Below are positions 312-51,935 of a DNA stretch of 64,000 nt, piece after piece (within the stretch, counting starts at the first letter, position 1; every line of letters begins with the position of its first letter). The position numbers and the translations under genes were made by a program. The DNA is from Eubacterium sp. (GTDB lineage Bacteria > Bacillota > Clostridia > Oscillospirales > Acutalibacteraceae), in contig JAFSTE010000012.1 of assembly GCA_017450645.1 (NCBI GenBank), forward strand, positions 1-64,000, in the 5' to 3' direction. The notes beneath the pieces are model-generated. The model had not been told where the DNA came from. It saw only the letters and a list, made by a program, of their open reading frames with translations, and did not search any database.

Positions 312-3476
<3,165 letters not shown>

Positions 3477-33787: not shown

Positions 33788-33814
33788 AAAGGCAACCGAT
33801 TTCTCGGTTGCCTT
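33788..33814 (-). terminator. Terminator of the tad operon
   Basis: On the minus strand AAGGCAACCG AGAAAT CGGTTGCCTT is followed by TTGTATAT. It lies 14 bases past the stop of the giant protein gene and back to back with the glg terminator. Confidence 0.8.
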
Positions 33815-33827
33815 AGTTGTTTTATAT

Positions 33828-36800
33828 TTACGGTGATTCGCTACCTTCGTCGTCACCCTCACCCTGAGAGGAGGTGCCGGTGTCAGTCAGACCCGGGAAG
33901 AATGGCTGTGCCCATTCGTTAATGTTCGGGTCGGGATTGGTATCATAACCGTACATATAGATGTCGTCAATCTTTTCGCCCCTATGGCTCTCGTACTCGC
34001 GTTCGGATACAAGGTAAACCTTTTTAGCACAAGCGATATGAAGGTCCATCTTGCTCCAGTTTTCGAAGCGGTGTACATTGATATAGAAGGTATTGATTGA
34101 TACCGTATGACCTACAACGCTACCGTAGTAGTTGTAAGCAAAGCCGTCAAGGTCACAGTGTCCCGCAGGTGCGTAGAACAGTGCGCCTAAGTAACCCTTT
34201 AGTGCGTAGTAATTAATATCACCCTGATATGATGCGAATGCGTTTGGAAGTACCTTAGCATCGGTCATATTAGTTTCGGAGGTGTCGGATGCAAAGTTCA
34301 GATTTCTGAAGTTTACATCGCCTCTGTTAGCAACGAAGTATGTTGTACGTATTCTTGCTGTAGTAGCGATATTAATCTCGTTATTTGCATAGATTACTAT
34401 CGGCTTCGGATTAGTCCTGCTCTGGGTTTCGTCGTATGAGTCGAAGCCCTTATAGCTCTTAGTGCTGCTGAGGCCGAGGTTACCCTTAATCGACTCCCAG
34501 AAGTTGCTCAAAGAGCTTGTATCGAACTGAAGGGTGTACATAGGTGCCCAGCAGTCGAAGTCGTGACCCATAAATACGAGCGAGCCTTTTCTCATAACCG
34601 TCTGACCGAATATCATCGTGTCATAGGTACCGAAGATTGATGTATTCTTATTCATAGTGAGCTGACCTAAGGAGTAGATACTACCTGTCTTAGGTGTTAC
34701 AGCCTGGCTTACAGAGTGCATCGCCGACTGCATAGTATCAACAAATCTGCTCCAGAGTGTTGCATCCCAGCCTTCCTCGTGCTGATACTCAGTTGTATGG
34801 AAGGTCGGATGTCCGAATACTTCGGGAAGCACCCACATATCCGAATTATGTCTTAGCGTGATATGCTCAAGCGATACTACATAACCGCCGCTGACAACTC
34901 TCGAATAAGCGTACTCACGGATATAGCTTGTAAGCGTTACGATGTTACCGCCGATGTAGAACTCAGCGCCTACAGCCCTGTCGGTTTCGTCCTTGCCGAG
35001 CTCGCTTTCCTCGTTGACCATAAGGTCGTCAGTACCCTCGTCGTAGTCAGAGCCTTCGTTTTGGTTATCGTTGCCTGCGTTGCCGCTTTCGCCGCCATCC
35101 TCACGCTCGTTATCGTCACCGTTATTGTAGTTAAACTCACTACCGTCGGTGGTAGAGCCGTTATCGTCGATAGGACGGTTCATAGCGTCGCCGATTTCGT
35201 TAAGATAATCAGCCATCTTAGCTTTCTTGATGCCGCGATAGAAGTTCTCGTCATACTTACCAAGCTCGATATAGCTTGTAGCCTGAAGGTTACCGCCTAC
35301 ATAAACCGTAGTCTGGTCACGCAGCTTCATAGTAGAAAGCGTTGCGGTCATATTATCGTGAACATAAACTTCTGAATAAGCACCGACATCTATTGAGGTC
35401 ATCGCCTTCATTTCGCCGCCGACAAACAGGTTAGCGTCGTGGCGAAGCGTGATATATCCGTTAACAAGGTTACTTGCCTTCATATCACCGCCGACTCTTA
35501 CGCTCGTAGAAGCGTAAATCTTGGTGTATTTGCTGGAGGTAAGATTCTTCTTAACATACATATATCCGGCGTTAGAGAACTGATACTTAGCAAGGGTTTC
35601 GCCCTCTTCCCTATATGCACTCTCGAGTGCCTGGGTAGCGTCCTTATTACCCTCGGTAAGCGACTTACCAACCTCAAGGTAATCGTCAGCCTCAAAGTTA
35701 CCGTAGATATATGTCTTAGTCATATCACGGATTTTAGCAGTGTCGCGGGCGTACATATTGCCGCCGACAACCATCTTAGAGCAGATATTAATATCAAGCG
35801 CCTGATATACCAAAAGTGTAAAGTTATTTTTATCTTCGGTATCGCTGTCGTCAATTCTGTTGCTAAGCCAGTTTCTCTGCTGGGTTGAAACGTCAGGACC
35901 GTATGCGTTTACGTCATCTCTGTCAGAATCGTTTTCGTTTTTAGCACGGATTTGCCACTTGATTCTCTTAGAAGAGCCGCTGCCCTCAAAGATAGAGTCG
36001 TTACCCTTAACAATCATAGCGACGTTTTGCTTTAAGTACAACTTAGTCGGGCAGTAGAAGTTGCCCTCTACATAGATATTGGTATTTGACTGAATATCTG
36101 TATCTCTTGAGCCGTCCCATGGAATATTATCCGTACCGTACTTAAGCTTTTTACCTGTTGGGTTAGCATACAGGCTACCGCCGACGTATAGGTAAGCAGA
36201 CCTGAATACCTTGCTTTCGTCATCAAAGCCAAGCTCGTTGGTATCGTAAGAATAGTTACTACCCTTATAGCTTCTAAGACCCGAGCCTGCATATTCGTGG
36301 TCCTCGCAGAAGGTTACGCAGCCCCAGTCGTTAATAGCAAACCACTCGTTAAGCTTAAGCGCTCTCTTAGAACGGAAGTCGCCGCCGGTTGCAAAAATAC
36401 TGTTTTTACCGGTTGCAACACCACCGCCGCCGAAGAAGTCGCCGCCGACAAATGTGGTTGAATTATTATGGAAATAACCTGCAACTTTGTAGTAATCGTT
36501 ATCTTTGTTTGTGAATATCTTAAAGTCGTTGCCTGTGTAAATTGTACCTGCGTTATATACAGAACCCGCATTACCTGCAGACTCAGACGTACCAAGCTTA
36601 AGCGTGCCGCCTACATACAGCGTTGCATCTTTTACAGTGTTCCACTCTGCTTCGTTTTCAGACCTGTTCTTTCTGATACCGTTCATAAGCGAAACGCATC
36701 TGATGTTATCACGGCTTGAGCCTATTCTGTATGTTTTACTGTTGCAGGTTTCAGCGTCGGACTCATCGTTTGTGCAGTCACCGCCGATATAGGTGGTACC

Positions 36801-39800
36801 GTGGTTAAACATACATGAGCCGAAGGTGAACTTGCCGCCGCAGCTGAATACACCGCCCGGCATATTGTAGAAGCAGTTTGAGTTAAGGCGGCAATAACCT
36901 GCAATATGCGTATTAGCATATTCGCCGTTAACAATAGTACATTCGATATTGTTAACATCGCCGACCTGTCCCCAACCCTGAACGCTGAGGTCCTTATTAA
37001 TATAGAAGTTACCGTACGAACGCAGGTTACCTCTTAATCTTAACTCGCCGTTCTTTGTGCCGCCGTTCCAAACAAGGAAGCTTGCGCCCTCTTCATTAAG
37101 AATTGTCCAGCTGTTCTGGTCACCGTCGGAGGACGGATAAGAATTTTGGTTAAGTATAAAGTCGCCGAAGATATGGATTTTACCGCGGTTTTCAATAGCC
37201 GAGCCCATAGTAAGATTACCCTTAACGCAAAGTCCGCCGTTTTGAAGTACCTTAACACCGTTTGAGTCAGGCATTGTAACATTACCGCTTACATAGGTAG
37301 TACCCTGCGGCAGGTACATATAGGTATATCTCTTACCAACCTTCTTATCATTGTCGGAAGTGTAGTTATTAACAACAAGGTTAGTATCAATATATACATG
37401 ACCCCAAGCCTCGTAGAAAGTACTATAGGTAAGGTCAACCGCGTTGTGCGTCTTACCGATAAGGTCGCCTGCAAGCGAGCTTTGGTAAATCTTGCCGACA
37501 TATGTTTCGGAATAGTTTGAAGTACCGCCCCAGAAGTTAAACTTAACCTGAGTGTTAAGAATTCTGGTAACATCCGTACCGCCTATGGCATAGAGCTTAC
37601 CGTAGTTTGTATAAGTACAGTTATAAAGGAATATTGTACCCTTTACATACAGTGTAGCATTAGAGTTATCGTTTTCGCCGACCTGAATCGACCTAACCTG
37701 AATGTCGCTGTCTACAACAACAAGACCGGTGTCGCGTACCATAATATACGCATATCTGCCAAGGTGGGTAGCGTCCTTTTCGCCGTACTTATTGTCAGTA
37801 GGCGGCAGGTAAATTGAGCCTGCGGAGTCGAGGTCAAAATAGTCGTCCTCGCTTGTGTTCTCACCGCAGTAAACGAGCGAATTATCGCCGTCTAAATGCG
37901 TTGTAAGGTCGGTAGAGATTGTAACCTTAGGATTGGTAAGCAGATAGGTTTCGGTTATATGAACTCTCTCGTAGCCCGCGACATCCGAACCGCCGTTTGC
38001 GGTAATTGTGTTACAGGTAAGATTACCGTTACACAAAAGCTGTGAAGTGCCGCTTGCATTAACATCGCCCGAGAAAATCATATCGTCGTTATGCGTTGCC
38101 GAATTATTGTCGCGGCTTACAACGATAGCGTTATCCGTAAGAGTTACATTGCTTGCGGAGCTGATACCGTCCGTTACAAACAGCGTTGAAAGGTCAACGG
38201 TAAGGTTTGTGCAGCTCATCGGGTTCTTGTCGATAAGACACTGTGAGTTCTTCATCGAAACTGCGCCCGAAACCTGAAGTGCCGTTTGTGCGCTGTCCTC
38301 GTTCATAACGCGAAGCTGTGAGCCGTCGTTATTGTACTTACCGGGAACATTAGTAAGGGTAAGCGAGTTACAGGTCATCTTCTTGGTTACGATTAACGTT
38401 GCATGCTTAAGTGTAACCGCGCCGCTTACATTAAGATTACCGTCAATGAATACCGCAATATTCGTAAACGTAAGTGATGTCGCACTCTGGTCGCCTGTAA
38501 AGGTTACCTGTCTGAGGTTTGAAAGGTTAGAAGCACCCGATATTACAACCTCGTACGGTGCAATAGCCAATGACTCATCCTCGCAAATAGGCGTAGACCT
38601 TGATTCAAGTGCGAGGTGACAGTTGAATATCGCATTGTTGTAAAGGTTAACCGTTTCGGTAAACTTAGCCTTTGACTGAGCGCAGATTATTGAATTGTTG
38701 TACATCGAAAGTGACCTTCCGGTGAGGTTATACGCCTCGACCTCGGGGTCTGCGTCGATATAAAGCAAATGATTTTGCTCGATAATAATATCCGCATTTG
38801 CAGCCGTAAATGATGTCAGGCAGTATGTAAGTCCGCTGTAATTTGTCGGCGTACCGTCAACCTTAAAGGCTGAATCGGTGCCGAAGTTATAGTTGCCGTA
38901 CATCTTTATTCTCGTTGTGCTCGGGCAGGAAATAGGACCAAATACATATGCCCTACCACCGTTTTCAAACGCGTCGTTACCGCTTGCAGAACAGGTCATA
39001 CCCGTACCTACAAACAGCTGACAACCGCTTTGCTGGTTACATAACTTGTTGAAATTGTTTTTAAACGCATCCTGTGAGCTGCTGTGTCCGTCGCCGAGAA
39101 TACTAATAACCGATGTACCGTTTCCGTGTGTCCAGATACAACACTTTCTGCCTGAATTTGAAGTTGAAAGACAACCGCGGACATAAATTGTACAGGTTTC
39201 CTCAACGTCAAGTGCGTCGTTACCCGACTCGGTAACAGCGTTAACGTCACCGTAAACATAAAGCGTAGCTGCTTTATTATACAACGCATCCTTAGCGGTC
39301 ACTGTACCGGTAACATACATAATTCCACGGTTATCAAGCGACCTGTTGCTGTTACTGCTGTTTTTGCTGTTCATGGTAAATGCGCCGTAGTTAGTGTTGC
39401 CGGAGGAATTGAGTGTACCGATAAGGATAGTACCCCAGTTCTCTGCATAACCAACGGTCATATTGCCGACGCAGTTAATAGTTGCAGTCTCGTTTTTATT
39501 ATAAAGGAATGTATTTGCGCTGATGTTGCCGCCGATTTTAAGCGTGCTACCAGCTTCGTTATTATTAATACCACTTGAGGTTGCTGAAAGCGAGCCCTTG
39601 GCATAAACAGAACGCTTATTAGTAATGCTGCCCGCTTCGATGCTTCCGTTTGAGATAACTGTTGAGCTGTCTTCGATAGTGAAAGCGCCTGAAAGGGTGA
39701 TATTACCGTTTGTCTTAACATCTCCGAGAGAAGTAAGCGAATTTGCGGTAATACTGCTCTTTGCAATAAGTTTTTTGACATCAAGATTAGCGCTGCCTGT

Positions 39801-42800
39801 AATAGCACCCCTTGTTTCGATTGCAGAGTTTGTACCGTTTGACGAAACGTCGCCTGCAAGGCTCATATTTCCGGTGCATCTGATGATGTTACTATTAACT
39901 ATGCTGACTGTATTTTTGAATGTATTTGCGTAAATTACCGCATTGTTACTATTTGTAAGGCTTCCAACATTAAAGCTGTCACCTGCAGACATTGTAGCGC
40001 CGCTATCGTTTTCAATCGTACCTATAACGGATGAATTGCTACCGATGCTACCGTTTGTCTTAAATATACAGTTGGCTTTGTTATTAATTGTAGAAGCTGA
40101 AATATTTCCGTCACCAAGGAAAGTAGATGGCTGATAGTTATTAAATGTTGAACAACTTACCGTACCGCCAACATGCATATATGCTCTTGCAGCATTAGCA
40201 TTGTTTGAGTTGGATTGGTTATTAATTGTACCGCAGGTAAGGTTATTACCGACCTTAAGTACACTGCCGGGATAGTTATTAATTGTCTGTCCGCTTGCAG
40301 AGATATTACCTGCATACATTGTAGCTGCACAAGAATCGCCGTTATAAATCTGCTTTTTACAGGTAATTGTACCTGTTACAATGATTGTGCCATCATTATG
40401 AATCTGAGCAGCGTTATTTGTGCTTTCAAGTGTTAAGTCACCGTCAACAATAAGCACATTGTTTTTAGCAACCCAAAGGTCGTGCTCGTCGCCGCCACCG
40501 TGAATAATGAGGTTACCCTTAACAAACATAAGGTTACCCGTCTTATTATCGCTTGTGCTGCCGACAGCAACCCTGTCGCCGACCCACGTATTACCGTTAA
40601 CGATAAGTGAAGCGCCGCTTTCACTTCTTAAGTTGATGTCACCTGTACCCTTAACGTCAAGGTTCTGACCTGTGTCAGGAGTCCAAACGCCGCCAATCAA
40701 ATTAGTACCGCGTACAATAAGGCTCTTATTGTCGTTGGTAGTCATATATTCATTAGCCCAGAAATATGTGTCTTTTGAAACGAAGAAACCTCTGCCGCCA
40801 TTATAATTCATACGTTTATAGTGTTCGTCGCCTGACACATAGGACTTTCTTTCATTTACACCACCAATCCAGTTCCAACCGGTTGCAACATTATTTTCGC
40901 CTGAAACAAGTACTCTGTGGTAAGCACCGTTACTGTCGTTATTATATCTTGTACCCTGGTCGTTACATCTTACAAGCTGGTCGCCTACATTAGCACCATA
41001 AGGCTGATTTGTGTTGCCGTTCCAGCCGTTCCAGCTCCACTGACCGCCGATTGTGTTAATAAGGTCAATTGCATTAAATGTTGACTTACCTGTTACATAG
41101 TTTTTAACAGTATTCGTCATCATTTGGTTATTTGAAAGCTTGCTGTTAAACAGCTCGCCGTAATTTGGTACGGACGCATCAACACCCGATGCCAACGACG
41201 GGATAGAAATATCGCTGTCAACGATATTAGCCTTTGATTCGTTTTTAACGGTTACATTAGCAGCAATTTCTGTATTAAATGTAACTCTCGGAGAGCCCGA
41301 AGCTGCGGGATTAAGCGATGTACCGTTAACGCTTGAGGACGGACCTGCAAGGAAAATCTGATTTAAATCAGGGATTGTAGGCTTAGTTACAACAATATCA
41401 ACCGGGTCGGTTGAACTGCCGGGGTCCTCACTCTCGCCTTCCATATTAATGTTAGGCTTAGGAATACTGTTAATCTGGGTGCGAACTTCCTCGCCGACTT
41501 TCTGATAAGACTTATTACCTAAATTGTTCTTATTTTCGTCGCCGTAGAGTTCCTGAATTTCAGTCTTTTTGTCTTCTACCGCAGTTCTGTCGGAGTCAAC
41601 AGTTGCTTCATAGTCGTTAACCGCAAGCACACCGTAGCGCTTTTCGGTATCTATAATATTCTTAAATTCCTGAACGAATGTATTACCGTTCTTTAACTTT
41701 CCGTTAGAATCATAAAGGTCATAACCTCTGAAGGAGGTTGTGGACATCTCCGCGCCGCCCTTAGTAACCTTAGTAGAAGTGAGCTTTGTAAGGGAGGTGT
41801 TTTCGCCCGCTTTATAACTCTGGAATAGAATTCTTCTTGCGTAAGTAGAGTCGTATAATGATTTATCAGCAAAAGTATCGTCGGTATAGCGAATGCTGTC
41901 CTTAACCGTCTTAAGCTCGTCAGATGCGATTTTAACAGCCTCTTTAACAGTACGCGCACCGGTTGTAACGCCGTCGGTAAACTGACCGCGCTTTTTGGTA
42001 GCGTCTCTGATAGACTGGTTAATCTGACGGGTGAAGAACGGTTTAAGGTTAGGCATATCAATATACTGGCTCTTTTCCTTAAATGTTCTTACGGTAGCGT
42101 ATTTAGCGCCGACATTTGTCTTAGCAGTGTTATAGCCTCCGCTTGCGCCACCGCTTGTAGCAAGCGCTTTTGCAACATTTCTGTTAACCTTAGAACCGCC
42201 TACTACCAGTTTATACGAATAAATCGGGTCTCTGGTTTTATCGTCATAGCCGTAATCGTCCTTATGCCAGCGATTAAGGGTAATAGTAGTATTAATACCC
42301 TCGCCGTCAGCCTTATCGGCAGTACCTGCGTATACTAAATTACCGTTTTCGTAGCCTACATCGTAGCCGCTGCAATCGGCGAGCTCCTGAAGGAGTGCTT
42401 CAAACCTGGTCTTATTAGCCGCAACAACATCGCCGCCGTCGGTAGCAGATGCCTGATAAGCGGTGAGATAGTTTGCAGCTTCCTCCTGGCTTACTCTGTA
42501 GACGATAGCCTCCTGAGAGGTTAAGGTAATTGTGTTATTTGCAGTGTCGATAGAAAGATAATTCTTTTGACCCTTTACCTTATTCTGCATATCGGTTGAA
42601 ACCGCTGAATTAGTTCTGAAGTACTGATTTGCAGCTTCCTGATACTCCGTTGCGATATTACCGGAGTTCAGGTTATTAAGATTCATCTCGTTAAGGATGT
42701 TAACAACATGCTGAACAGCCTGCACATCCTGCTGATTCTGAACATACACACGTGTAAGCTCGGGATGATTCTTAAGATAGTTAATTAAAGCTTTGTTTAT

Positions 42801-43811
42801 AAAGTTAGTCTGGCGTTCCTTTGCATAGTTAGAATAACCGAATTTAATATCGTTTACCGCGCTTACGCGTACCTGTCCGTAGTCGGTAGCGTCGGTAAGA
42901 CCGGTATATTCCTGATTTACATTAGAAGCATTTGACTGGTCATCTGCTGCAGGCGAGTCACCGTCATAGTCGGTATCTTTAAGACGGCTTGCATTAAACG
43001 CCTGAACGCCAATCATTACATTAGAGTTAGAATGAACATCGTTGTTCATCATCATTTCGGACACATTGATATTAACAAGGCTGTTATAATCGGTTTCGAG
43101 TCCGAAAAAGCCCTTAATATCCTGGATAAAATCGTTAACGCCGTTAATTGCCTGCTCGGCAACTGCAACAACAGAAGAAAATGCAGTGTCGCCCGAGCCT
43201 GCGCCCGTACTGCCCTGAAGGTCAATAGCGGGATGGTCTGCGTCTACATATGCGGTAGCGTTACCGTTTTCGTCAACAGAATAAACATCTCCCTTGCTTG
43301 CGCCCGCGAAAATACTGAATTTAAGTGCTTCGGGCATAGCCTCGTATTCAGGCTCTACCATTACATAAGCAACCTTTCTTAAGTGGAGCTGCTTAATACC
43401 GAGCACATTGGCAAACAAAGTCGAGTCGTCTACATCAACGATTAATCTGAAGTAGCCCTTTGTAATATAATCGTCCGCTTCGTCAACAGAGCCCGAAACC
43501 TCAAGATTCTGAACACCGATAAACTCGATGTCAGCTGAAACTCTGTCTTTATATTCGCCGTTTTTGTTATCATATCCATTCTTTGCAAGATAATCGTATG
43601 CGGTTTTGTCAAGCTCGCTCTGGTCAGATTCGAGCTTTTGACCGATAGCAACAGCTGCCGAGTCAACCGCATTCTGAAGCCTAGCCCCCAAATAATAGTG
43701 CAATCCGATGTCAATACTTAACGCAGTAAAGCCAAGAAGGACGGTCAGCATAAGCGCCGTCATAACTGCTATTGCACCATTCTCCCTTTTCTTTTTAAAT
43801 AACTTTTTCAA
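33828..43811 (-). CDS. Giant TadG-like surface protein with beta-solenoid repeats
   Basis: The 3,327-residue protein begins at TTG 43811, eight bases after AAGGGGG. Residues 1-45 carry a basic head and one membrane helix (GAIAVMTALMLTVLLGF) as in TadG/TadE Flp-pilus proteins, and RLQNAVDSAAVAIGQKL is the typical TadG helix. Residues about 45-1000 are non-repetitive with helical stretches. From about 1030 to 2980 there are many glycine-rich units of about 20-24 residues, such as VYVGGNLQATSYIEL, FVGGEMKAMTSIDVG and VYVHDNMTATLSTMKL, resembling bactofilin or right-handed beta-helix rungs. An acidic linker lies at about 2870-2950. Near the C-terminus GALFYAPAGHCDLDGFAYN plus YGSVVGH resembles domains at the ends of PilX-like proteins. 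No LPXTG motif is seen. It is the last gene of the tad operon; an adhesive or structural pilus-associated role is inferred. Confidence 0.85.
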   Translation of the reverse strand: MKKLFKKKRENGAIAVMTALMLTVLLGFTALSIDIGLHYYLGARLQNAVDSAAVAIGQKLESDQSELDKTAYDYLAKNGYDNKNGEYKDRVSADIEFIGVQNLEVSGSVDEADDYITKGYFRLIVDVDDSTLFANVLGIKQLHLRKVAYVMVEPEYEAMPEALKFSIFAGASKGDVYSVDENGNATAYVDADHPAIDLQGSTGAGSGDTAFSSVVAVAEQAINGVNDFIQDIKGFFGLETDYNSLVNINVSEMMMNNDVHSNSNVMIGVQAFNASRLKDTDYDGDSPAADDQSNASNVNQEYTGLTDATDYGQVRVSAVNDIKFGYSNYAKERQTNFINKALINYLKNHPELTRVYVQNQQDVQAVQHVVNILNEMNLNNLNSGNIATEYQEAANQYFRTNSAVSTDMQNKVKGQKNYLSIDTANNTITLTSQEAIVYRVSQEEAANYLTAYQASATDGGDVVAANKTRFEALLQELADCSGYDVGYENGNLVYAGTADKADGEGINTTITLNRWHKDDYGYDDKTRDPIYSYKLVVGGSKVNRNVAKALATSGGASGGYNTAKTNVGAKYATVRTFKEKSQYIDMPNLKPFFTRQINQSIRDATKKRGQFTDGVTTGARTVKEAVKIASDELKTVKDSIRYTDDTFADKSLYDSTYARRILFQSYKAGENTSLTKLTSTKVTKGGAEMSTTSFRGYDLYDSNGKLKNGNTFVQEFKNIIDTEKRYGVLAVNDYEATVDSDRTAVEDKKTEIQELYGDENKNNLGNKSYQKVGEEVRTQINSIPKPNINMEGESEDPGSSTDPVDIVVTKPTIPDLNQIFLAGPSSSVNGTSLNPAASGSPRVTFNTEIAANVTVKNESKANIVDSDISIPSLASGVDASVPNYGELFNSKLSNNQMMTNTVKNYVTGKSTFNAIDLINTIGGQWSWNGWNGNTNQPYGANVGDQLVRCNDQGTRYNNDSNGAYHRVLVSGENNVATGWNWIGGVNERKSYVSGDEHYKRMNYNGGRGFFVSKDTYFWANEYMTTNDNKSLIVRGTNLIGGVWTPDTGQNLDVKGTGDINLRSESGASLIVNGNTWVGDRVAVGSTSDNKTGNLMFVKGNLIIHGGGDEHDLWVAKNNVLIVDGDLTLESTNNAAQIHNDGTIIVTGTITCKKQIYNGDSCAATMYAGNISASGQTINNYPGSVLKVGNNLTCGTINNQSNSNNANAARAYMHVGGTVSCSTFNNYQPSTFLGDGNISASTINNKANCIFKTNGSIGSNSSVIGTIENDSGATMSAGDSFNVGSLTNSNNAVIYANTFKNTVSIVNSNIIRCTGNMSLAGDVSSNGTNSAIETRGAITGSANLDVKKLIAKSSITANSLTSLGDVKTNGNITLSGAFTIEDSSTVISNGSIEAGSITNKRSVYAKGSLSATSSGINNNEAGSTLKIGGNISANTFLYNKNETATINCVGNMTVGYAENWGTILIGTLNSSGNTNYGAFTMNSKNSSNSNRSLDNRGIMYVTGTVTAKDALYNKAATLYVYGDVNAVTESGNDALDVEETCTIYVRGCLSTSNSGRKCCIWTHGNGTSVISILGDGHSSSQDAFKNNFNKLCNQQSGCQLFVGTGMTCSASGNDAFENGGRAYVFGPISCPSTTRIKMYGNYNFGTDSAFKVDGTPTNYSGLTYCLTSFTAANADIIIEQNHLLYIDADPEVEAYNLTGRSLSMYNNSIICAQSKAKFTETVNLYNNAIFNCHLALESRSTPICEDESLAIAPYEVVISGASNLSNLRQVTFTGDQSATSLTFTNIAVFIDGNLNVSGAVTLKHATLIVTKKMTCNSLTLTNVPGKYNNDGSQLRVMNEDSAQTALQVSGAVSMKNSQCLIDKNPMSCTNLTVDLSTLFVTDGISSASNVTLTDNAIVVSRDNNSATHNDDMIFSGDVNASGTSQLLCNGNLTCNTITANGGSDVAGYERVHITETYLLTNPKVTISTDLTTHLDGDNSLVYCGENTSEDDYFDLDSAGSIYLPPTDNKYGEKDATHLGRYAYIMVRDTGLVVVDSDIQVRSIQVGENDNSNATLYVKGTIFLYNCTYTNYGKLYAIGGTDVTRILNTQVKFNFWGGTSNYSETYVGKIYQSSLAGDLIGKTHNAVDLTYSTFYEAWGHVYIDTNLVVNNYTSDNDKKVGKRYTYMYLPQGTTYVSGNVTMPDSNGVKVLQNGGLCVKGNLTMGSAIENRGKIHIFGDFILNQNSYPSSDGDQNSWTILNEEGASFLVWNGGTKNGELRLRGNLRSYGNFYINKDLSVQGWGQVGDVNNIECTIVNGEYANTHIAGYCRLNSNCFYNMPGGVFSCGGKFTFGSCMFNHGTTYIGGDCTNDESDAETCNSKTYRIGSSRDNIRCVSLMNGIRKNRSENEAEWNTVKDATLYVGGTLKLGTSESAGNAGSVYNAGTIYTGNDFKIFTNKDNDYYKVAGYFHNNSTTFVGGDFFGGGGVATGKNSIFATGGDFRSKRALKLNEWFAINDWGCVTFCEDHEYAGSGLRSYKGSNYSYDTNELGFDDESKVFRSAYLYVGGSLYANPTGKKLKYGTDNIPWDGSRDTDIQSNTNIYVEGNFYCPTKLYLKQNVAMIVKGNDSIFEGSGSSKRIKWQIRAKNENDSDRDDVNAYGPDVSTQQRNWLSNRIDDSDTEDKNNFTLLVYQALDINICSKMVVGGNMYARDTAKIRDMTKTYIYGNFEADDYLEVGKSLTEGNKDATQALESAYREEGETLAKYQFSNAGYMYVKKNLTSSKYTKIYASTSVRVGGDMKASNLVNGYITLRHDANLFVGGEMKAMTSIDVGAYSEVYVHDNMTATLSTMKLRDQTTVYVGGNLQATSYIELGKYDENFYRGIKKAKMADYLNEIGDAMNRPIDDNGSTTDGSEFNYNNGDDNEREDGGESGNAGNDNQNEGSDYDEGTDDLMVNEESELGKDETDRAVGAEFYIGGNIVTLTSYIREYAYSRVVSGGYVVSLEHITLRHNSDMWVLPEVFGHPTFHTTEYQHEEGWDATLWSRFVDTMQSAMHSVSQAVTPKTGSIYSLGQLTMNKNTSIFGTYDTMIFGQTVMRKGSLVFMGHDFDCWAPMYTLQFDTSSLSNFWESIKGNLGLSSTKSYKGFDSYDETQSRTNPKPIVIYANNEINIATTARIRTTYFVANRGDVNFRNLNFASDTSETNMTDAKVLPNAFASYQGDINYYALKGYLGALFYAPAGHCDLDGFAYNYYGSVVGHTVSINTFYINVHRFENWSKMDLHIACAKKVYLVSEREYESHRGEKIDDIYMYGYDTNPDPNINEWAQPFFPGLTDTGTSSQGEGDDEGSESP

Positions 43812-43868: not shown

Positions 43869-44528
43869 TTACTTATTAATATCCTCTGCTTTTGAATGAG
43901 CAAGTGAAAATTCGGTCTGAAGTCTGTAAATCAAATCCTCTGCCTTATCAATTGCACTTTCGTAAATCTTAGCGATTTCGGAATATTTCTTTTCTTCGTC
44001 GCCTGTCATACCTGCCTCAACCTTTTCGGAGAGGTCGTTAATCTTATTTCTGTTTTTGTCAACCTTTTTGGTAAGGTGAGCAACATCGCGCTGAAGGTCT
44101 CTGTTTTGTTCTTCAAGCTTTCTGTTCTCTTCCTGGAGGAGTCTGTTCTTGGTCTGTGCCTTATAAAGCTTCTCCTCAAGTTCCTTAACCTCTTCGGTAT
44201 TATCAGCAGCTACAACAACCTTACGGTCAGCCTTGGCAAGCTTAGCGGAAAGAGCATCCCTCTCCTCCTTGCATTGCTCAAAAAGCTTTTTCATACGGTC
44301 AGCTTCCTGCTGTGTTTGTTCGAGCTCATAATTGAGCATATCGTTTTGATTTTTTAAATCGCTGAAACGGGAATCAAATATCTCCGTTGCACTTTTGTTT
44401 GTCTTTTGAAGATTAGCTATAACCTCATCAACCTGCTTAGGGTCATAGCCGCGCAAAACCTTATCAAAAGAATAGGCATTAGCTGCGTCTCCTAATAGAC
44501 TCTCTCTGTTAATTACATCATCAGCCAT
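43869..44528 (-). CDS. DivIVA-like coiled-coil protein
   Basis: The 219-residue protein starts with a short domain containing YSFDKVLRGYDPKQVDEVI, the pattern of DivIVA/GpsB N-terminal domains that bind curved membrane. Residues about 45-180 are a nearly continuous coiled coil rich in Glu, Lys, Leu and Asn, and the end is helical. AGGAG precedes the ATG. Lying between the DUF192 gene and the giant TadG-like gene of the tad operon, it may position the pilus machine at a pole or septum. That role is inferred; a general cell-division role is also possible. Confidence 0.75.
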   Translation of the reverse strand: MADDVINRESLLGDAANAYSFDKVLRGYDPKQVDEVIANLQKTNKSATEIFDSRFSDLKNQNDMLNYELEQTQQEADRMKKLFEQCKEERDALSAKLAKADRKVVVAADNTEEVKELEEKLYKAQTKNRLLQEENRKLEEQNRDLQRDVAHLTKKVDKNRNKINDLSEKVEAGMTGDEEKKYSEIAKIYESAIDKAEDLIYRLQTEFSLAHSKAEDINK

Positions 44529-44537
44529 AGTTTACTC

Positions 44538-44903
44538 CTACTTTGTAATAGATTTTTGCTGTGGAAATTCGAGTACATCACCCTCGCAAATTCCAAGCCT
44601 TTGTGCCGCACCGGCGTTAAGCTCCAGCACTTTATACGCGCCGTCAACTTTTTTTCTTACCTTGTGCGGCGGCACTGCTCTGTCAATAAACAAAACCTTG
44701 TTATCTTTTGAAAGAGCAATCGTATCAATATCAAATCTCATACCGAATGTATGAATTTCGTTACACGGGGTTAAAAGAAGTCCGTGATTTTCAGCCATCC
44801 CCTTTCTGTACATAAGACCCATAAATCTTCTGAAAAAAGTGGAGGCGTCCTCAATTTCTTCTATTAACAGTTCACCGTTTTTTCTTAATTCTAAAATCTT
44901 CAT
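44538..44903 (-). CDS. DUF192 family protein
   Basis: The 121-residue protein fits the compact beta-fold DUF192 family, with FFRRFMGLMYRKG near 25-37, CNEIHTFGMRFDID at the centre, and LELNAGAAQRLGICEGD near the end. It has no signal peptide, unlike many family members. Its ATG overlaps the TadC stop (TAATG), so it is coupled to the tad operon. The family's function is not established. Confidence 0.85.
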   Translation of the reverse strand: MKILELRKNGELLIEEIEDASTFFRRFMGLMYRKGMAENHGLLLTPCNEIHTFGMRFDIDTIALSKDNKVLFIDRAVPPHKVRKKVDGAYKVLELNAGAAQRLGICEGDVLEFPQQKSITK

Positions 44904-45850
44904 TATCCAAGCATTCCACCCATACTGTCAATTACTGAGAATATTACGGGTCCGAGGATTACAAGAATAATTGTGGGAAGAATGAATATAACCGTAGGAA
45001 TAGTCATCTTTGTAGGTACCTTAGAGGCAACCTCTTTGATTTCCTCGCTCTTATCCATTCTCAGCTGCTCAGCCTGAGCATCAAGTACATTTGTAATAGG
45101 AATACCAAGCTGATTTGCCTGAATTACCGCGGATACAAAGGTTTTAAGCTCCTTAACATCCGAAGCATCCGCAATACCCTTAAGTGCTTCGTTTCTCTTT
45201 TTACCGAGCTGTATCTGTCTGAATACTGTCATAAGCTCATCGATAAGAGGGCCTTCCATTCTCTCGGCAATCTTAACGAGCGAAGCGTCGAAGCTAAGAC
45301 CTGCTTCCATACATACGCTCATAAGGTCAATAGTGTCGGCAAGCTGCATCTTAATAGCTTCCTGATGCTTTTTAACCCTTACTGTAAGATACATATCGGG
45401 TCCCACAATTCCGAGAAGTACGCCCGCGATTGCTAAGATAACAGCCGGAGTGGTCAGGTTATAAATAAACAACACAAGACCGATACCGATTGAAATTACA
45501 ATTACAACCGCTGTAAAAGCACCCTTAAAGAAATTGTAGTTAGACGGAGAAATATGCATACCCGCTTTTCTGAGCTTTGCAGCGAGGAGCTCTCTGTTTT
45601 TCTTAGCTCTCTCTGACTTAGTAGCATTTTCGCCGTATCTTTCTGTATTATTAAGCTTATCAAGCATAGGCTTAATAACACGGTCATAGAAAGAAGTGTT
45701 AACATTTTTATAATCCGCTTTGACGGTTTCTTTACCTAAAGCCTGCTTACGGCGGAAGTTATTATCATCCTCCTCGCCCTTTCTGGTAAGCAGTACCAAA
45801 ACAAGCGCAAATGCAAACAGAGCGTAAGCAATAACAATAAATTGTATCAT
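44903..45850 (-). CDS. tadC: Tad pilus assembly membrane protein TadC
   Basis: The 315-residue protein has an N-terminal membrane helix, a central pair of helices, and a type II secretion F domain at about 175-300, containing CMEAGLSFDASLVKIAERM and IQANQLGIPITNVLD, followed by a C-terminal membrane helix. It forms with TadB the inner-membrane platform on which the TadA ATPase works. AAGGAGG precedes the ATG; its stop overlaps the DUF192 start. Confidence 0.9.
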   Translation of the reverse strand: MIQFIVIAYALFAFALVLVLLTRKGEEDDNNFRRKQALGKETVKADYKNVNTSFYDRVIKPMLDKLNNTERYGENATKSERAKKNRELLAAKLRKAGMHISPSNYNFFKGAFTAVVIVISIGIGLVLFIYNLTTPAVILAIAGVLLGIVGPDMYLTVRVKKHQEAIKMQLADTIDLMSVCMEAGLSFDASLVKIAERMEGPLIDELMTVFRQIQLGKKRNEALKGIADASDVKELKTFVSAVIQANQLGIPITNVLDAQAEQLRMDKSEEIKEVASKVPTKMTIPTVIFILPTIILVILGPVIFSVIDSMGGMLG

Positions 45851-45861
45851 AAGCGCCCTCC

Positions 45862-46845
45862 TTACATTTTAACGGTGGTAATCTTTTTAACCGCTATAAA
45901 CGCCATAGCCTCAAGACCTGCGGCAATTGCAAGCAGAATATTACCACGCGGCTCCAAATAAAGAACCTTTACGAAATCGAAATTAATAAGTGTGAACAAT
46001 CCGAGAATTATAACCGGCATCGCGCCAACGATGATACCTGACATCTTACCTGACGACACAGATGTTTTTAACTCTCTCTTAAGCTTCATTCTGCCACGGA
46101 TTGTGTCAGAAATATTTTCAAGAATGTGCGAGAGGTTACCACCGGTCTGTCTTTGAATAAGTACAGCTGAAACCATAAGTTCAACATAGCGGCTTTTAAT
46201 TCTTTCGCTGAGGTTTTCGAGCGCCTCGTCCATCGAGTAACCCATATTAACCTCTTTAACAACCGTTGAAAACTCGACCGAAATCGGTGCGTCCATATCC
46301 TTGGCAATAGTTTCCATCGCCTGGTTAAAGCTAAGACCCGAGCGCAAACAGCTGCAGCAAATCATAAGTGCGTCGCAAAGCTGCTCCTCAAACTTTTTAA
46401 CTCTCGATTTTTGCTTACTCTTTACATAAACTATCGGAACGATTCCACCGACAATCACAAGAATAAGAGCTACGATGATATTGCCTACAAACAGCGTAAC
46501 GATAGCAGCAGGGATAAACGCAATTAAAATCCATACGATAAGGAATTCCTCGGGACGCATCTTAATATCTGCGCTCTGAAGCTGTTTATAAATTGCGTTA
46601 CCGACTTTTTCATCAAATCGGCTGTTCTGCCTTTTTTTTGCTCGTCTGTTTCTTGTGGTTTTGCTTTCGTTTTTTACAAGCGCAATCTCGCCGCCGTCAC
46701 CCTCGTTTTTATTAAGCTCCTCAAGTCGCTTTTCCGCTGCAATTTTATCAGCAGAAACAGCAGAAGCAATAATAAACGCAAGTGCAAAGGTCAGCAGCGC
46801 AAAGGTCAGAGAAATGAGTATAACACTAAGAGTTGAACCAGTCAT
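45862..46845 (-). CDS. tadB: Tad pilus assembly membrane protein TadB
   Basis: The 327-residue platform protein has an N-terminal membrane helix, central helices and a T2SSF domain at about 155-285 with CLRSGLSFNQAMETIAKDM and RQTGGNLSHILENISD, then C-terminal membrane helices. It starts 20 bases inside the end of tadA, with GGAGTGGTGG as ribosome binding site, showing translational coupling. tadC follows after 11 bases. Confidence 0.92.
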   Translation of the reverse strand: MTGSTLSVILISLTFALLTFALAFIIASAVSADKIAAEKRLEELNKNEGDGGEIALVKNESKTTRNRRAKKRQNSRFDEKVGNAIYKQLQSADIKMRPEEFLIVWILIAFIPAAIVTLFVGNIIVALILVIVGGIVPIVYVKSKQKSRVKKFEEQLCDALMICCSCLRSGLSFNQAMETIAKDMDAPISVEFSTVVKEVNMGYSMDEALENLSERIKSRYVELMVSAVLIQRQTGGNLSHILENISDTIRGRMKLKRELKTSVSSGKMSGIIVGAMPVIILGLFTLINFDFVKVLYLEPRGNILLAIAAGLEAMAFIAVKKITTVKM

Positions 46846-48175
46846 TATTAACCACCACTCCGTTCTCTCTTATTTTGTCAATGCATTTTGGCACGATACC
46901 TGTTGCTTTGAATTCACCCTTAAATTTACCGTCGGTGTCCATTTCACCGGATGTTTCATAGGAGAATATTTCCTGCATACGGATAACATCGCCCTCCATA
47001 CCGACAATCTCAGAAATAGATACAATCTTTCTTGAGCCGTCCCTAAGACGTGCCTGCTGAACGATGATGTTAATTGCAGAGGCAACCTGGTCCCTGATAG
47101 CTTTTGACGGAAGCTCAGAGCCGGACATCATAACCATTGTTTCAATACGCGAAACCGAGTCACGCGGTGAGTTAGCATGGATAGTTGTAAGCGAGCCGTC
47201 ATGACCGGTGTTCATAGCCTGAAGCATGTCAAGCGTTTCGTCGGAACGTACCTCACCGACAATAATACGGTCAGGACGCATACGAAGTGCGTTTACAACT
47301 AAGTCTCTGATGCTGATTCTACCTTTACCCTCCATGTTAGCAGGTCTGCTCTCAAGAGTGATTACATGCTCCTGCTTAAGCTGAACTTCGGCAGAGTCCT
47401 CGATTGTGACAATTCTTTCGTCGTCCGGAATATAACCCGAAAGAATATTTAACAGTGTTGTTTTACCGGAGCCTGTACCTCCGGATACGATTATGTTGAG
47501 CTTACCCTTAACCGCAGCTTCTAAAAATGCAAGCATTTTGTGGTTAGCCGAGCCTAAAGCGATAAGCGTTTGAGCTGTGATTAGCTTTTTTGAGAATTTA
47601 CGGATTGTAAGAACAGGTCCTACAAGCGACACGGGAGGAATGATAACATTTACACGCGAGCCGTCGGGAAGTCTTGCGTCAACCATCGGGCTTGCCTCGT
47701 CAACATGACGACCAACCTTTGTAACGATTCTGTCAATAATCTGCATAAGGTGGTCGGTGTCCTTAAACTGAATGTCGGTAAGCTGGATTTTACCCTTGCT
47801 CTCGGCATATACCTGGTAAGGACCGTTAACCATGATTTCGCTGAAGGAATCGTCGTTAACAAGAGGCTGAATGGGACCGTAACCCATAATGTCATCATAA
47901 AGCTCTTCTGAAACAGCCGCTCTGTCAATTCTCGGGATACCGTACTCGGGCTTTTCTACATACTCCTGGATAAGAGCACGCATTCCGTCCTCGGTTACTG
48001 CGACATCACTGGTAATCTGTTTTTCAACAATCGCATTATGAATTTGTGTTTTAGTTTCCGCAAACGGATCTTCGGATACAAGTTTAGAGGCCTTAGGGGC
48101 GCTTCTTTCTTCCTGTTCTGATGCATCCGGTGCGTTGGCTTCTTCTAAGGAGCCGTATCTGTCAAGAAGTCCCAT
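46826..48175 (-). CDS. tadA: Tad secretion ATPase TadA/CpaF
   Basis: The 449-residue type II/IV secretion ATPase has Walker A SGGTGSGKTT with K238, the Asp box and Walker B region in RMRPDRIIVGEVRSDET, and the His box in DGSLTTIHANSP. It hexamerises below the membrane and powers Flp pilus assembly. Its ATG overlaps the TadZ stop (TAATG), with AGAGGA just upstream. Confidence 0.96.
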   Translation of the reverse strand: MGLLDRYGSLEEANAPDASEQEERSAPKASKLVSEDPFAETKTQIHNAIVEKQITSDVAVTEDGMRALIQEYVEKPEYGIPRIDRAAVSEELYDDIMGYGPIQPLVNDDSFSEIMVNGPYQVYAESKGKIQLTDIQFKDTDHLMQIIDRIVTKVGRHVDEASPMVDARLPDGSRVNVIIPPVSLVGPVLTIRKFSKKLITAQTLIALGSANHKMLAFLEAAVKGKLNIIVSGGTGSGKTTLLNILSGYIPDDERIVTIEDSAEVQLKQEHVITLESRPANMEGKGRISIRDLVVNALRMRPDRIIVGEVRSDETLDMLQAMNTGHDGSLTTIHANSPRDSVSRIETMVMMSGSELPSKAIRDQVASAINIIVQQARLRDGSRKIVSISEIVGMEGDVIRMQEIFSYETSGEMDTDGKFKGEFKATGIVPKCIDKIRENGVVVNNDWFNS

Positions 48176-49362
48176 TAGCTATTCCTCTTTGCTTTCTTAT
48201 TTGTTTTCTTTTCGAGCTTGCCTTCTCTTTCGAGTACCATTGTATCTACAAGAGATATAATATCCTTGGCAATCGGAGAACGCGGCTTATAGGTTGTTAT
48301 CGGCTGACCGTTATTAAGCGATGAGTTAACGGTTTTGAAGTCGCTTGAAACAACCGCATAAGCGGGAATACCAAGAAGATTTTCAAAATCTTCGATTGTA
48401 ACGGTGTTTTTCTTGACATTTTTGTTAATTATAAGCTTAGCCTTATCCTTCTGGTTAAGTTGCTGAATAACGTTAAGGCAAACCTTAGCTCTTTTAAGCG
48501 AAAGAATGTTAACATCGTTAACCATAAAGATAACGTCTGAGCTTTCGATTGCGGTAATTACAGGGTCTGTAAGCGAGCAACCGCAGTCGATAAGTATGTA
48601 TTCAAAATAGTTTCTTGCAATATCTATGATAGATTTAACCGCTGCACTTGTAACATATTCTGCAAGCTCAGGTGACGGAGGTGATGCAAGAAGTGAAAGT
48701 CCCGAAGGATGAGAAGTACAGCAAGCTGTAAGGTTGTCGATAGACACGCCTCTGCCGTCTCTCGAAACATCAACAATTGTTTCGGTAGGATTAAGGTCGA
48801 GTGCCATATCAGCGTCGCCGAACTGCAAATCAAGGTCAATAAGAAGTGTCTTCTTACCTCTAGATGCGAGCTCAACGGCAACATTTGCAGCGATTGTAGT
48901 CTTGCCTACGCCGCCCTTACCACTAAAAAGACCGTAAACTGTAGAACGGGTTTTCTTCTCCATATTTGTGTCTGCGTGGAAGCGTCTTTCCTTAGCAACA
49001 AGGCGCTCCATATTTTCGCAGAATTCTTTACCATCAATTTCAAGGTCGAGAACCTGCTTAACGCCTGCCTGAGCAGCAAGGTTAACAATATCAACAGTAA
49101 CCTTATCCGTAAGAATTACAGGGATTGCGCCGAAAGAGGCAAGGTTCATATCCTCAATGAAATCCGCAAACTGCGTATTTATGTCGTAGCTGTCTACGAG
49201 GAAGGCAACAATATCAGGAACAAATCCCTGAATTCTGACCTTGGCATTAGGCTCAATATCGGAATAACCGATAATCGCAAAGTTTTCGTCAACAAGTTTG
49301 TTTTTAAGGGCAACCTTGTATTCTGTATCATTTGAACATACAACAATATTAATCTTTTCCAT
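48175..49362 (-). CDS. tadZ: TadZ/CpaE pilus localisation ATPase (MinD-like)
   Basis: The 395-residue protein has an N-terminal receiver-like domain without clear phospho-acceptor set (about 1-120) and a MinD/ParA-type ATPase domain with deviant Walker A GKGGVGKTTIAANVAVEL near 140-160. Such proteins place the Tad machine at the cell pole or other site. The start is ATG 49362 after TTGGAGAG; an in-frame TTG five codons upstream overlaps that site. Together with the DivIVA-like protein in the same operon it suggests spatial control of the pilus. Confidence 0.9.
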   Translation of the reverse strand: MEKINIVVCSNDTEYKVALKNKLVDENFAIIGYSDIEPNAKVRIQGFVPDIVAFLVDSYDINTQFADFIEDMNLASFGAIPVILTDKVTVDIVNLAAQAGVKQVLDLEIDGKEFCENMERLVAKERRFHADTNMEKKTRSTVYGLFSGKGGVGKTTIAANVAVELASRGKKTLLIDLDLQFGDADMALDLNPTETIVDVSRDGRGVSIDNLTACCTSHPSGLSLLASPPSPELAEYVTSAAVKSIIDIARNYFEYILIDCGCSLTDPVITAIESSDVIFMVNDVNILSLKRAKVCLNVIQQLNQKDKAKLIINKNVKKNTVTIEDFENLLGIPAYAVVSSDFKTVNSSLNNGQPITTYKPRSPIAKDIISLVDTMVLEREGKLEKKTNKKAKRNS

Positions 49363-49388
49363 AAACTTACTCTCCAATTCGTGATATT

Positions 49389-50066
49389 TTATTTACGAGG
49401 TTTAAGCACGAGCTTAAATGAATAATCGTTTTCAATCGTGTAAAGCTGAAGTGCCTGCTTTTCAGTAACTTCAACAGTTAATGTGCCGTAATCACGAATT
49501 GCGGAACCGCTTGCGCTGGCGCTTGCGTCAGCCGATGCGTTTGAAACTCTTAAAATTTTAAGGTCTTTGTAAGCAACTCTCGGAACGGTTTTGCCGCTGT
49601 CGTCTTTTTCATAAACAAGAACGTCAACCGTATCGCCTACGCTGATATAACCGTCAACACCGTTAACGGAGCCTGCGCTGAAGGAATACGCAACCTTGCC
49701 CTTGCTGAGCTTGTACGAAAGACCTACGCTGTCGTCGTCCATGCCCACAACTCTGTTTTCGTTAATTGTTTCGCCGGTGTAAATCGGGTCAACGGTAACC
49801 TTGTCAATAAGGTCCTCCTGATTTTTGATTGCAAGCGGGTCTGCAGTGTCCGAAACAACGGAAACTGTTTTGAACTTTGCAGTGTCCTCTTCAAACATTT
49901 CTGCAGTAATCAAAGTGTTTGAAGGGATATCCTCCGTTGCAACGATAACGTCAACCATGTTTGCGTCCTTAATCGAGGACTTTTTGTCGAGCTGGTTTGC
50001 AAACATAAACGTTGCAAACATAGCAAGCAGTGCAAAAACAACTGCGATTAAATAAACCTTTTTCAT
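49389..50066 (-). CDS. cpaB: CpaB/RcpC pilus assembly protein (SAF domain)
   Basis: The 225-residue protein has an N-terminal membrane helix (YLIAVVFALLAMFATFMF), then a SAF domain at about 38-105 (VDVIVATEDIPSNTLITAEM) and a C-terminal RcpC-type domain with ISVGDTVDVLV. In Gram-negatives it works with the secretin; here, in a single-membrane cell, it probably stabilises the pilus or interacts with wall glycan. Confidence 0.88.
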   Translation of the reverse strand: MKKVYLIAVVFALLAMFATFMFANQLDKKSSIKDANMVDVIVATEDIPSNTLITAEMFEEDTAKFKTVSVVSDTADPLAIKNQEDLIDKVTVDPIYTGETINENRVVGMDDDSVGLSYKLSKGKVAYSFSAGSVNGVDGYISVGDTVDVLVYEKDDSGKTVPRVAYKDLKILRVSNASADASASASGSAIRDYGTLTVEVTEKQALQLYTIENDYSFKLVLKPRK

Positions 50067-50171: not shown

Positions 50172-50723
50172 TTAGTACGGTGAAGTGGTTGTAGTAATAT
50201 ACTGCTTCTCAGTCTTATACGTGGAAGTAACACTGAGCTTTTTCTTCATATGGTCCGCAGTAGCGCCTAAAATAGGAGTAAGAACGGTAGCATCTCCTGT
50301 AACCGTAACCTTGACATCCCCATTCCAACGGTTAGTTACGTTAAATGTACCATCCTGAATTGCATCGTGGTCGTAAGTATAGACAACTTTGATTCTTACA
50401 CTGTCTTCACTGACTCCCGTAGGCAGCGTATCCTTTACTGTATTGCAAATCTCCTGTTCGCTTACAGAGTATTCCGAAACATGCGAAAGGTCCATATTTC
50501 TGTTAACCACGACCTTGTCGGTTTTGTTATAAGAAATATCGGTGTACTCTACGCATGCGATACGCGCCGCATTTCTCGCACTGTTTTCAAGTGAAATATA
50601 ATTATAAAAAAGAAAGCCGAAGTCAAGAATACCCATGACCAGCAAAAGAAATATAGGCAATACGAAAGCAAATTCAATCATCGCCTGGCCGTTTTCTTTT
50701 TTATTTTTCTTGCGATTTTTCAC
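50172..50723 (-). CDS. tadE: TadE-like minor pilin
   Basis: The 183-residue protein begins at GTG 50723 with a basic head and the prepilin-like GQAMIEFAFVLPIFLLL segment typical of TadE-type pseudopilins, cleaved and then inserted in the membrane. The remainder (about 50-183) is a beta-rich extracellular domain. The ribosome binding site is weak (AAGGTTGGTGATGG). It follows the terminator below the pilin genes. Confidence 0.88.
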   Translation of the reverse strand: MKNRKKNKKENGQAMIEFAFVLPIFLLLVMGILDFGFLFYNYISLENSARNAARIACVEYTDISYNKTDKVVVNRNMDLSHVSEYSVSEQEICNTVKDTLPTGVSEDSVRIKVVYTYDHDAIQDGTFNVTNRWNGDVKVTVTGDATVLTPILGATADHMKKKLSVTSTYKTEKQYITTTTSPY

Positions 50724-50799: not shown

Positions 50800-50958
50800 T
50801 CATTTGGCTTTGTCAACAGCATCATTAGCGCCGTTAAATACATTTCTGATTTTTGGTCCAAAAGCTAAGAGGACAACGAGCGAAACGATTGCGATTAAGC
50901 CAAGTACAAGAGCGTACTCTACAATACTCTGACCGTTTTCATCAATAAAAAAACTCAT
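50800..50958 (-). CDS. flp: Flp pilin 1
   Basis: The 52-residue prepilin has DENG|QSIVEYALVLG, with predicted cleavage after the glycine and Glu-Tyr at +5/+6 of the mature form, followed by the hydrophobic helix LIAIVSLVVLLAFG and a short charged tail. AGGAGG precedes the ATG at 50958; an in-frame upstream start is rejected. It is the second of two similar pilin genes. Confidence 0.9.
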   Translation of the reverse strand: MSFFIDENGQSIVEYALVLGLIAIVSLVVLLAFGPKIRNVFNGANDAVDKAK

Positions 50959-51018
50959 TTTAACCTCCTGAATGCCAATGGAAAAGAAATATAGCGCTAA
51001 TATCATAATTGCTATTAA

Positions 51019-51186
51019 TTAACCGTTCGATGTAGCATCGTCAACTGCGGTGTTAGCCTTATTGAAGAGGTTCTTAATCTTCGGACCAAGTGCAATAAGA
51101 ACAACGATTGCAACGATAGCGATGAGACCAAGGATGAGAGCGTACTCTACCATGCCCTGTCCATTCTCGTCTTTAAGAAATGTCAT
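51019..51186 (-). CDS. flp: Flp pilin 2
   Basis: Translating the minus strand from ATG 51186 gives a 55-residue prepilin with DENG|QGMVEYALILG, then LIAIVAIVVLIALGPKIKNL and a tail ending ATSNG. GAAGGAGG lies nine to ten bases upstream. It is closely similar to, but distinct from, flp 1 (about half to two thirds of residues identical by eye). It is cleaved by the adjacent peptidase and probably forms the main fibre. Confidence 0.92.
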   Translation of the reverse strand: MTFLKDENGQGMVEYALILGLIAIVAIVVLIALGPKIKNLFNKANTAVDDATSNG

Positions 51187-51245: not shown

Positions 51246-51935
51246 CTAAAATAACATCCCGGTTGATATATGATCAAACACGGAAAAGCACATCGTAACT
51301 ATTGTGCCGACTGATAAAAACGGACCCATTGGGACAAGCGTTTTCATGCCGCCTTTTTTCGTGATTTTAAGGTACACATAGTACAATGCAACCAGAAGCG
51401 CCATAATAACCATAGACTGGAAATAGCCTGTAGCATACACGCATATTCCGATAACGCCACTGTATTTTATATCTCCGGCTCCCATCGGAATTTTTAGCAG
51501 GCTGGGGATTAAGCACACTACCATTCCGACGAAAAATCCGACAAATATACTCGGGAAAATCTCCATCGATTTTGTGGATATACAATGATAAATTACATAA
51601 CCCAGCTCGATAACAAGCATTGTTAAAAGCAACGGGTTAGGTATCTTTCTGACTAAAGCGTCAACAAAAATAATACCGAAAATAGGAATCAGCAATAATA
51701 AATTCCTAACAAAAATATCTGCCGAATCGGCGCCGAATGTAATGCCTAATGAAGCGGCAACCGAAAGAACTATCGATAAAATATGTATGCTTCTCTTATT
51801 AAGCGGAGCAACTGCTGCAGGGTCTTCGGTTCTTGATAAAGCCAGCTTTTTAGAAATGGGAATTGAAATAATCCCAAGCACAATTCCGTATACAACAGAT
51901 ACGAGAATTTTGACTAATATTGGCGTAGATTCCAT
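51246..51935 (-). CDS. tadV: Prepilin peptidase TadV/CpaA (A24 family)
   Basis: The 229-residue membrane protein has six or so hydrophobic helices and the two catalytic aspartates in VDALVRKIPNP and PMGAGDIKYSG. The N-terminal methylase domain of full PilD is absent, as usual for TadV. It processes the Flp and TadE prepilins. The start is ATG 51935, five bases after AGGAG. It leads the tad operon. Confidence 0.92.
   Translation of the reverse strand: MESTPILVKILVSVVYGIVLGIISIPISKKLALSRTEDPAAVAPLNKRSIHILSIVLSVAASLGITFGADSADIFVRNLLLLIPIFGIIFVDALVRKIPNPLLLTMLVIELGYVIYHCISTKSMEIFPSIFVGFFVGMVVCLIPSLLKIPMGAGDIKYSGVIGICVYATGYFQSMVIMALLVALYYVYLKITKKGGMKTLVPMGPFLSVGTIVTMCFSVFDHISTGMLF

Follow-up and report, generated by a model that had tools for sequence, protein, structure and literature searches.

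The gene at positions 33828..43811 (minus strand) of a 64,000-nucleotide stretch of Eubacterium sp. DNA (contig JAFSTE010000012.1, positions 1 to 64,000, called the window below) is the last of a tad pilus operon and encodes a giant TadG-type protein of 3,327 aa (362 kDa, pI 4.9), best read from its sequence as a TadG grown between two ends, with the extracellular growth having apparently occurred once in evolution. Sequence comparison and structural modelling together suggest a one-chain rod on a pilus protein, and our favoured reading, which we consider fairly probable, is that of a modular pilin at the tip of the pilus whose rod shows its cap and side faces to ligand. The TadG assignment had been made in an earlier note drawn from the DNA letters, and it holds: the frame opens at a TTG start with a GGGGG-type ribosome-binding site 8 nt 5′ of it and has no internal stop, the Tad domain (PF13400, residues 12-55) scores 28.1 bits against a Pfam cut-off of 22.3, and hydropathy gives a single N-terminal membrane helix at residues 12-37. 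The same domain is matched by 12 of 12 giants at E ≤ 0.1.

The two ends were located by comparing profiles of the giants and of 13 short TadGs (hhalign). The N-terminal module (residues 1-169; 43305..43811, on the minus strand like all parts of the giant given below) carries the Tad domain, the one helix and the motif ExG|AIAVM, which lacks a glutamate at position +5 (Glu+5), and matches the short TadGs over residues 7-169 with a probability of 99.5 and an E-value of 9e-23. The conserved C-terminal cap (ALFYAPAGHCDLDGFAYNYYGSVVGHTVSINTFYINVHR; residues 3139-3245, 34077..34397) is likewise common to short TadGs (probability 96.7%, E = 3.6e-10). Because the short TadGs share both the N-terminal module and the cap, the giant appears to be a TadG lengthened internally. 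Four short TadGs of other Clostridia tad loci (P0013, P0014, P0015 and P0018; 383-629 aa, and thus about 5-9 times shorter than the giant) have this module, the cap (by profile) and a glycine-rich body as in the giant; the genes of P0014, P0015 and P0018 lie after the tad genes as the giant's does, whereas that of P0013 precedes cpaB. The earlier note had likened the C-terminus to PilX-type domains, which stands only indirectly, in that some of the short TadGs matching the cap reach DUF7305 (PF23981): the family is over its cut-off in short TadGs of two of eight genomes searched (G061, G145) and just below it in P0013 (25.9 bits, cut-off 27), but no match was found in the window protein itself, nor in genomes G000, G071, G200, G201 and G209.

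Between these ends lies, first, an N-terminal extracellular region (residues 170-1005, 40797..43304), delimited by sequence and conservation, in which an 'HSN' motif at about residue 260 has a similar counterpart in short TadGs. It is followed by a length-variable beta-helix block (residues 1006-2129, 37425..40796), whose counterpart spans 331-1,260 aa across 13 complete giants in which the C part measures 972-1,398 aa, and by a better conserved second beta-helix block (residues 2130-2859, 35235..37424). The acidic linker described in the earlier note was found at residues of about 2860-2943 (34983..35234) as a low-confidence segment, with a predicted local distance difference test score (pLDDT) below 50 at model residues 731-808 and 810-814. 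Past it, the predicted structure shows a third beta-rich block (residues 2944-3138, 34398..34982), and after the cap comes a short tail (residues 3246-3327, 33831..34076), mostly of low confidence in the model. A sorting signal had been reported missing, and indeed a scan of 19 sequences showed no LPxTG-like motif (LP.T[GAN]) among their final 80 residues; six of the sequences are partial, so that 13 C-termini were really tested.

The long beta-solenoid body of the earlier note is supported by both sequence statistics and modelling, with units that are irregular. A strict strand-turn motif occurs 37 times in the whole window protein versus 8.2 ± 2.7 times in 50 shuffles, and 21-57 times across 12 giants versus 5.3-9.0 times in their shuffles; within the body these motifs lie 6 to 270 aa apart. 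A hidden Markov model of the unit, trained on 466 units from other giants with the window protein held out, found 13 units above 3 bits in the latter, all within residues 1001-3000, and none in each of 20 shuffles or in the reversed sequence. Autocorrelation of the sequence peaks at lag 6 in residues 1000-2000 (z = 4.7; 7.8 in the relative L096) and at lag 20 in residues 2500-3000 (z = 5.6). Lags 65 and 67, of about three solenoid turns, are as strong as lag 6 in residues 1000-2000 (z = 4.8 and 4.3). At the DNA level the window's copy gave no rows of tandem array, and its direct repeats are limited to three short families of 25-33 nt; since the spacing is irregular and no DNA arrays are visible, the repeats are old.

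AlphaFold2 predicts a beta-helix across residues 1006-2129 (mean pLDDT 84) and much of residues 2130-3245, with successive parallel strands forming the coil. Its best solved-structure matches are the beta-helical surface proteins pertactin and EtpA and an antifreeze repeat, and the matches listed comprise passengers of adhesins or autotransporters, beta-helices of toxins and tailspikes, lyases and the antifreeze repeat; judged by these, the modelled helix would be right-handed. With a beta-helix rise of 0.48 nm per turn and an assumed 20-30 aa per turn, we estimate a rod of about 70-100 turns, roughly 30-50 nm long if straight. A search of viral structures returned six matches below E = 0.001, to long viral proteins, some of them without a name, with TM-scores of at most 0.30. 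Sequence searches against solved structures gave one match for profile A1 (E = 0.74), CD276 and weaker others for P0014 (E = 0.0005), and, for P0013, a WD-40 repeat protein at E = 5e-12 over 35 residues in which no stretch passed alone; all of these were taken as chance or repeat composition. A plasmid search with the C-terminal third of the giant had zero matches.

The giant is not peculiar to the window. A CpaF scan fetched 79 loci, and the genomes reached from 12 of them were searched for PF13400: eleven hold frames of 2,320-3,675 aa, and the twelfth, E. uniforme, two shorter ones (630 and 637 aa). In near relatives the giant comes after a DivIVA-like gene in the arrangement seen in the window; the terminal giant gene recurs in the corresponding position behind their tad genes. 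Among the 80 species genomes of the window's genus, 31 gave a Tad match, and their frames are complete and unbroken in 19 cases (2,320-3,679 aa, the window's included), run off contig ends in 11 and are interrupted in one. The complete frames include that of the cultured E. coprostanoligenes ATCC 51222 (L021, G208; contig and place as in G953), and the mis-assembly that the earlier note had allowed for is thereby set aside. E. coprostanoligenes and its relatives are commensals often met in the gut, and little is known of their surface structures. In the interrupted copy (G997, L177:5160-8510) the giant frame is broken after 774 aa, and a further frame of the same protein lies past the stop.

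The remaining 49 of the 80 genus genomes, some of them incomplete, have no Tad match, and because this is also true of 37 of the 51 best genomes, the tad locus is accessory in the genus. In a family sample, 15 of 200 genomes have a Tad match, with frames of 163-1,492 aa except for the window's (3,338) and that of G071 (2,624); matches were found in 22 of 394 genomes of an order sample and 57 of 391 of a class sample, and among the frames listed for these two none but the window's exceeds 1,492 aa. The three samples overlap and hold few members of the genus: giants are rare outside the window's clade, and total absence elsewhere is not what the samples show. The CpaF tree has 34 rows and unites the 19 that carry the giant label in a single group (support 99/95), with one change. 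Its rows were hand-chosen, with two distant loci as outgroups; L003, L007, L012, L017, L018 and L020, which contain little of the giant or none of it, were omitted along with the other fetched loci, L113 was dropped as no CpaF turned up in its stretch, and in six of the 19 giant rows the frame is truncated by the stored stretch or by the end of a contig (1,305-2,388 aa seen).

Other long TadGs differ in their make-up. The giant of G071 (L106:427-8292; 2,622 aa) has a block of BspA-type leucine-rich repeats together with two sets of zinc-ribbon-like cysteines; the LRR_5 module is present in one of 12 giants compared and also in L106, alongside the zinc-ribbon-like cysteine pairs. The long TadGs L107-L111 (866-1,491 aa) were considered as intermediates and rejected: the full translations of L107 and L108 look helical by eye, L108 (P0016) is of DUF5702 type by Pfam, and L109-L111 are known from the starts of their open reading frames alone. 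L107 and L108, and perhaps L109-L111, would be another kind of long TadG within the family, with a helical-looking body unlike that of the solenoid kind.

Measured over the best local segment, identity to the nearest relative (L002/L096) is 93% for CpaF, 88% for CpaE, 83% for both TadB and the DivIVA-like protein and 55% for TadE, and for the giant 53% in the N part, 33% in the middle and 52% in the C part; among relatives the middle block is 18-34% identical to the window's. Ratios of nonsynonymous to synonymous substitution (dN/dS) were taken from the window's genome and those of its three nearest relatives (four in all), and are rough since dS is mostly above 1: the giant gave 0.13-0.36 in 22 of 24 comparisons, dS being saturated in the other two, and CpaF gave 0.033-0.067. 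In dN the giant is higher than CpaF by a factor of about 4-15. These values suggest a protein that is constrained yet fast-changing, like exposed surface proteins.

What we infer beyond the fold is tip location, adhesion, the class of ligand and the length of the rod. The pilus tip is preferred because TadE and both Flp pilins of the window have Glu+5 and the giant does not, and because tip pilins of this kind have precedents. Glu at +5 of the Gly|X4-Glu cleavage motif is found in none of 19 giants (three read by eye), and its absence is the pattern of tip pilins such as GspK. In the available text on the Kil (Tad) pilus, genetics shows complexes of minor pilins to act in that pilus, modelling places them there as exchangeable tips, and an equivalent role is proposed for TadEFG (PMC12075869); CpaL has been modelled at the Tad pilus tip (PMC12607857), and ComZ, a beta-solenoid pilin without Glu5, is argued to occupy a pilus tip (PMC6561018), each according to the parts of the source at hand. 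In such a scheme the N-terminal pilin-like helix would first dock in the membrane, the giant would then take its place beside TadE and the second Flp pilin in the tip of the Tad (Flp) pilus, and the rod would project the conserved cap and a fast-evolving side face outward, where they would form a surface that adheres to or senses fibre, mucus or other cells. By analogy the giant may be said to work like, and not to be, a type IV minor pilin with a class III signal, as Glu+5 is absent from it and likewise from ComZ. Several points weigh against a tip rod: no evidence of TadG processing was seen; the missing Glu+5 could also mean that the giant stays in the membrane; a tip rod so long must cross the thick wall at every pilus extension; TadE is fast-evolving too, so that fast change is not special to the rod; and enzymes and phage tailspikes are among the beta-helix matches, a shared fold showing no function.

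If the giant stayed in the membrane, it might be an anchored stalk whose solenoid crosses the peptidoglycan and which, outside the polymer, serves as a platform for assembly, a guide for the pilus or an adhesin always exposed at the surface, a possibility to which we give a minor share of our belief. The absence of Glu+5 would fit it, and so would the estimated length of the rod, the thickness of Gram-positive walls being comparable in order to 30-50 nm. A review, in the part available, also names TadG as a membrane component (PMC6916266). Against a stalk stand the proposal that TadEFG-like pilins form Tad tips, with its genetic support from the Kil pilus (PMC12075869, in part), and the 5-9-fold shorter TadGs, which keep the same ends and imply that the basic role of TadG does not depend on reaching across the wall. 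More speculatively, and at least as doubtful, a single-chain beta-helix needle grown from a pilin may cross the Gram-positive wall, the membrane-docked TadG holding its cap outside while the pilus is retracted so that a target is touched and sensed before extension, and lineages tuning its reach by gaining or losing solenoid turns; if true, the needle would be among the largest pilin-like proteins described.

A polysaccharide-cleaving beta-helix enzyme displayed on the pilus is improbable: the lyases among the structural matches are outscored by pertactin and EtpA, the window protein has no enzyme family match in Pfam or NCBIfam, and the middle block is poorly conserved. We think still less of a bactofilin-like scaffold filament made as one chain, which the earlier note had proposed and which is not supported. 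The glycine-rich six-residue periodicity would agree with it, as would weak matches to bactofilin (PF04519) in two of 12 giants (best E = 0.0089) and in the short TadGs P0014 (21.4 bits) and P0018 (14.6 bits; cut-off 27.9); the window protein, however, has no match at E ≤ 5 (HMMER filters drop most matches above about 0.1), the membrane helix and the tad operon point outwards, and the listed structural matches include no bactofilin, in itself a weak sign. Neutral repeat growth without function, or an assembly artefact, would suit the widely varying middle length and the interrupted copy in G997 and is very hard to reconcile with 19 complete unbroken frames in one genus, one from a cultured isolate, with dN/dS below 0.4 in 22 of 24 comparisons (rough, as said) and with the absence of a tandem DNA array from the window's copy.

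The operon is complete, as the earlier note had it, and its genes, all on the minus strand, are transcribed in the order prepilin peptidase (Peptidase_A24, 51246..51941), Flp pilin (51019..51186; Flp/Fap 43.9 bits), second Flp pilin (50800..50958; Flp/Fap 28.5 bits, under the cut-off of 32.2; the listed open reading frame starts at 51006), TadE-like pseudopilin (50172..50723; Glu+5 in ENG|QAMIE), CpaB/RcpC (49389..50066), CpaE/TadZ-type ATPase (AAA_31, 48175..49377; named by place and fold), CpaF/TadA ATPase (T2SSE, 46826..48175), the platform proteins of TadB type (T2SSF, 45862..46845) and TadC type (T2SSF, 44903..45850), a DUF192 protein (44538..44903), a coiled-coil protein with an N-terminal DivIVA domain (43869..44528; TIGR03544 22.5 bits, cut-off 22), which adjoins the giant upstream, and the giant last. 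Just 3′ of the giant's stop, a terminator-like hairpin (33789..33814, minus strand), recognised by consensus match, would end the operon. The DivIVA-domain and DUF192 proteins have counterparts in 11 of 11 relatives compared (29-83% and 52-75% identity, respectively), and the former may position the pilus machine in the cell. Elsewhere in the window, 16453-20493 (plus strand) encodes a 1,346-aa subtilase (Peptidase_S8) with Kelch-type repeat matches.

Finally, the giant can be set beside known systems. Pertactin, EtpA, UpaB and Ag43 share its predicted fold and rod-like shape and have no pilin module; they are secreted via type V or two-partner routes in diderms. In the literature on TadG, Tad pili and E. 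coprostanoligenes, searched mostly at title level, we found no description of such a giant. ComZ of Thermus thermophilus, compared here by its description, is like it in being pilin-like, without Glu5 and bearing a large triangular beta-solenoid, its tip position argued structurally; in contrast to the giant, ComZ is a competence pilin, and its solenoid, some 380 residues long, is set into the pilin sheet and binds DNA (PMC6561018, in the part available). The Kil tip complexes of Myxococcus (PMC12075869) and CpaL of Caulobacter (PMC12607857) are, as far as the available text goes, large pilins that carry additional exposed domains and have been placed at the Tad tip by modelling, but those domains are of other kinds (vWA in CpaL) and the hosts are diderm. 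In a monoderm, PilB and PilC of Streptococcus sanguinis (PMC8179133, PMC9934059; both in part) have a functional module grafted on a pilin and are modelled at the filament tip. The fold and the grafted-pilin idea are already known; the scale, the clade-specific growth and the length series are new. With shared ends from 383 to 3,679 aa, the TadG family is a natural length series, which makes the role of TadG at the Tad pilus and the reach of a monoderm pilus through its wall directly testable. The most extreme several-domain case named in the accessible part of an InterPro survey of modular pilins has 860 residues (PMC8179133), and at 3,327 the giant would extend modular pilins about four-fold past it.
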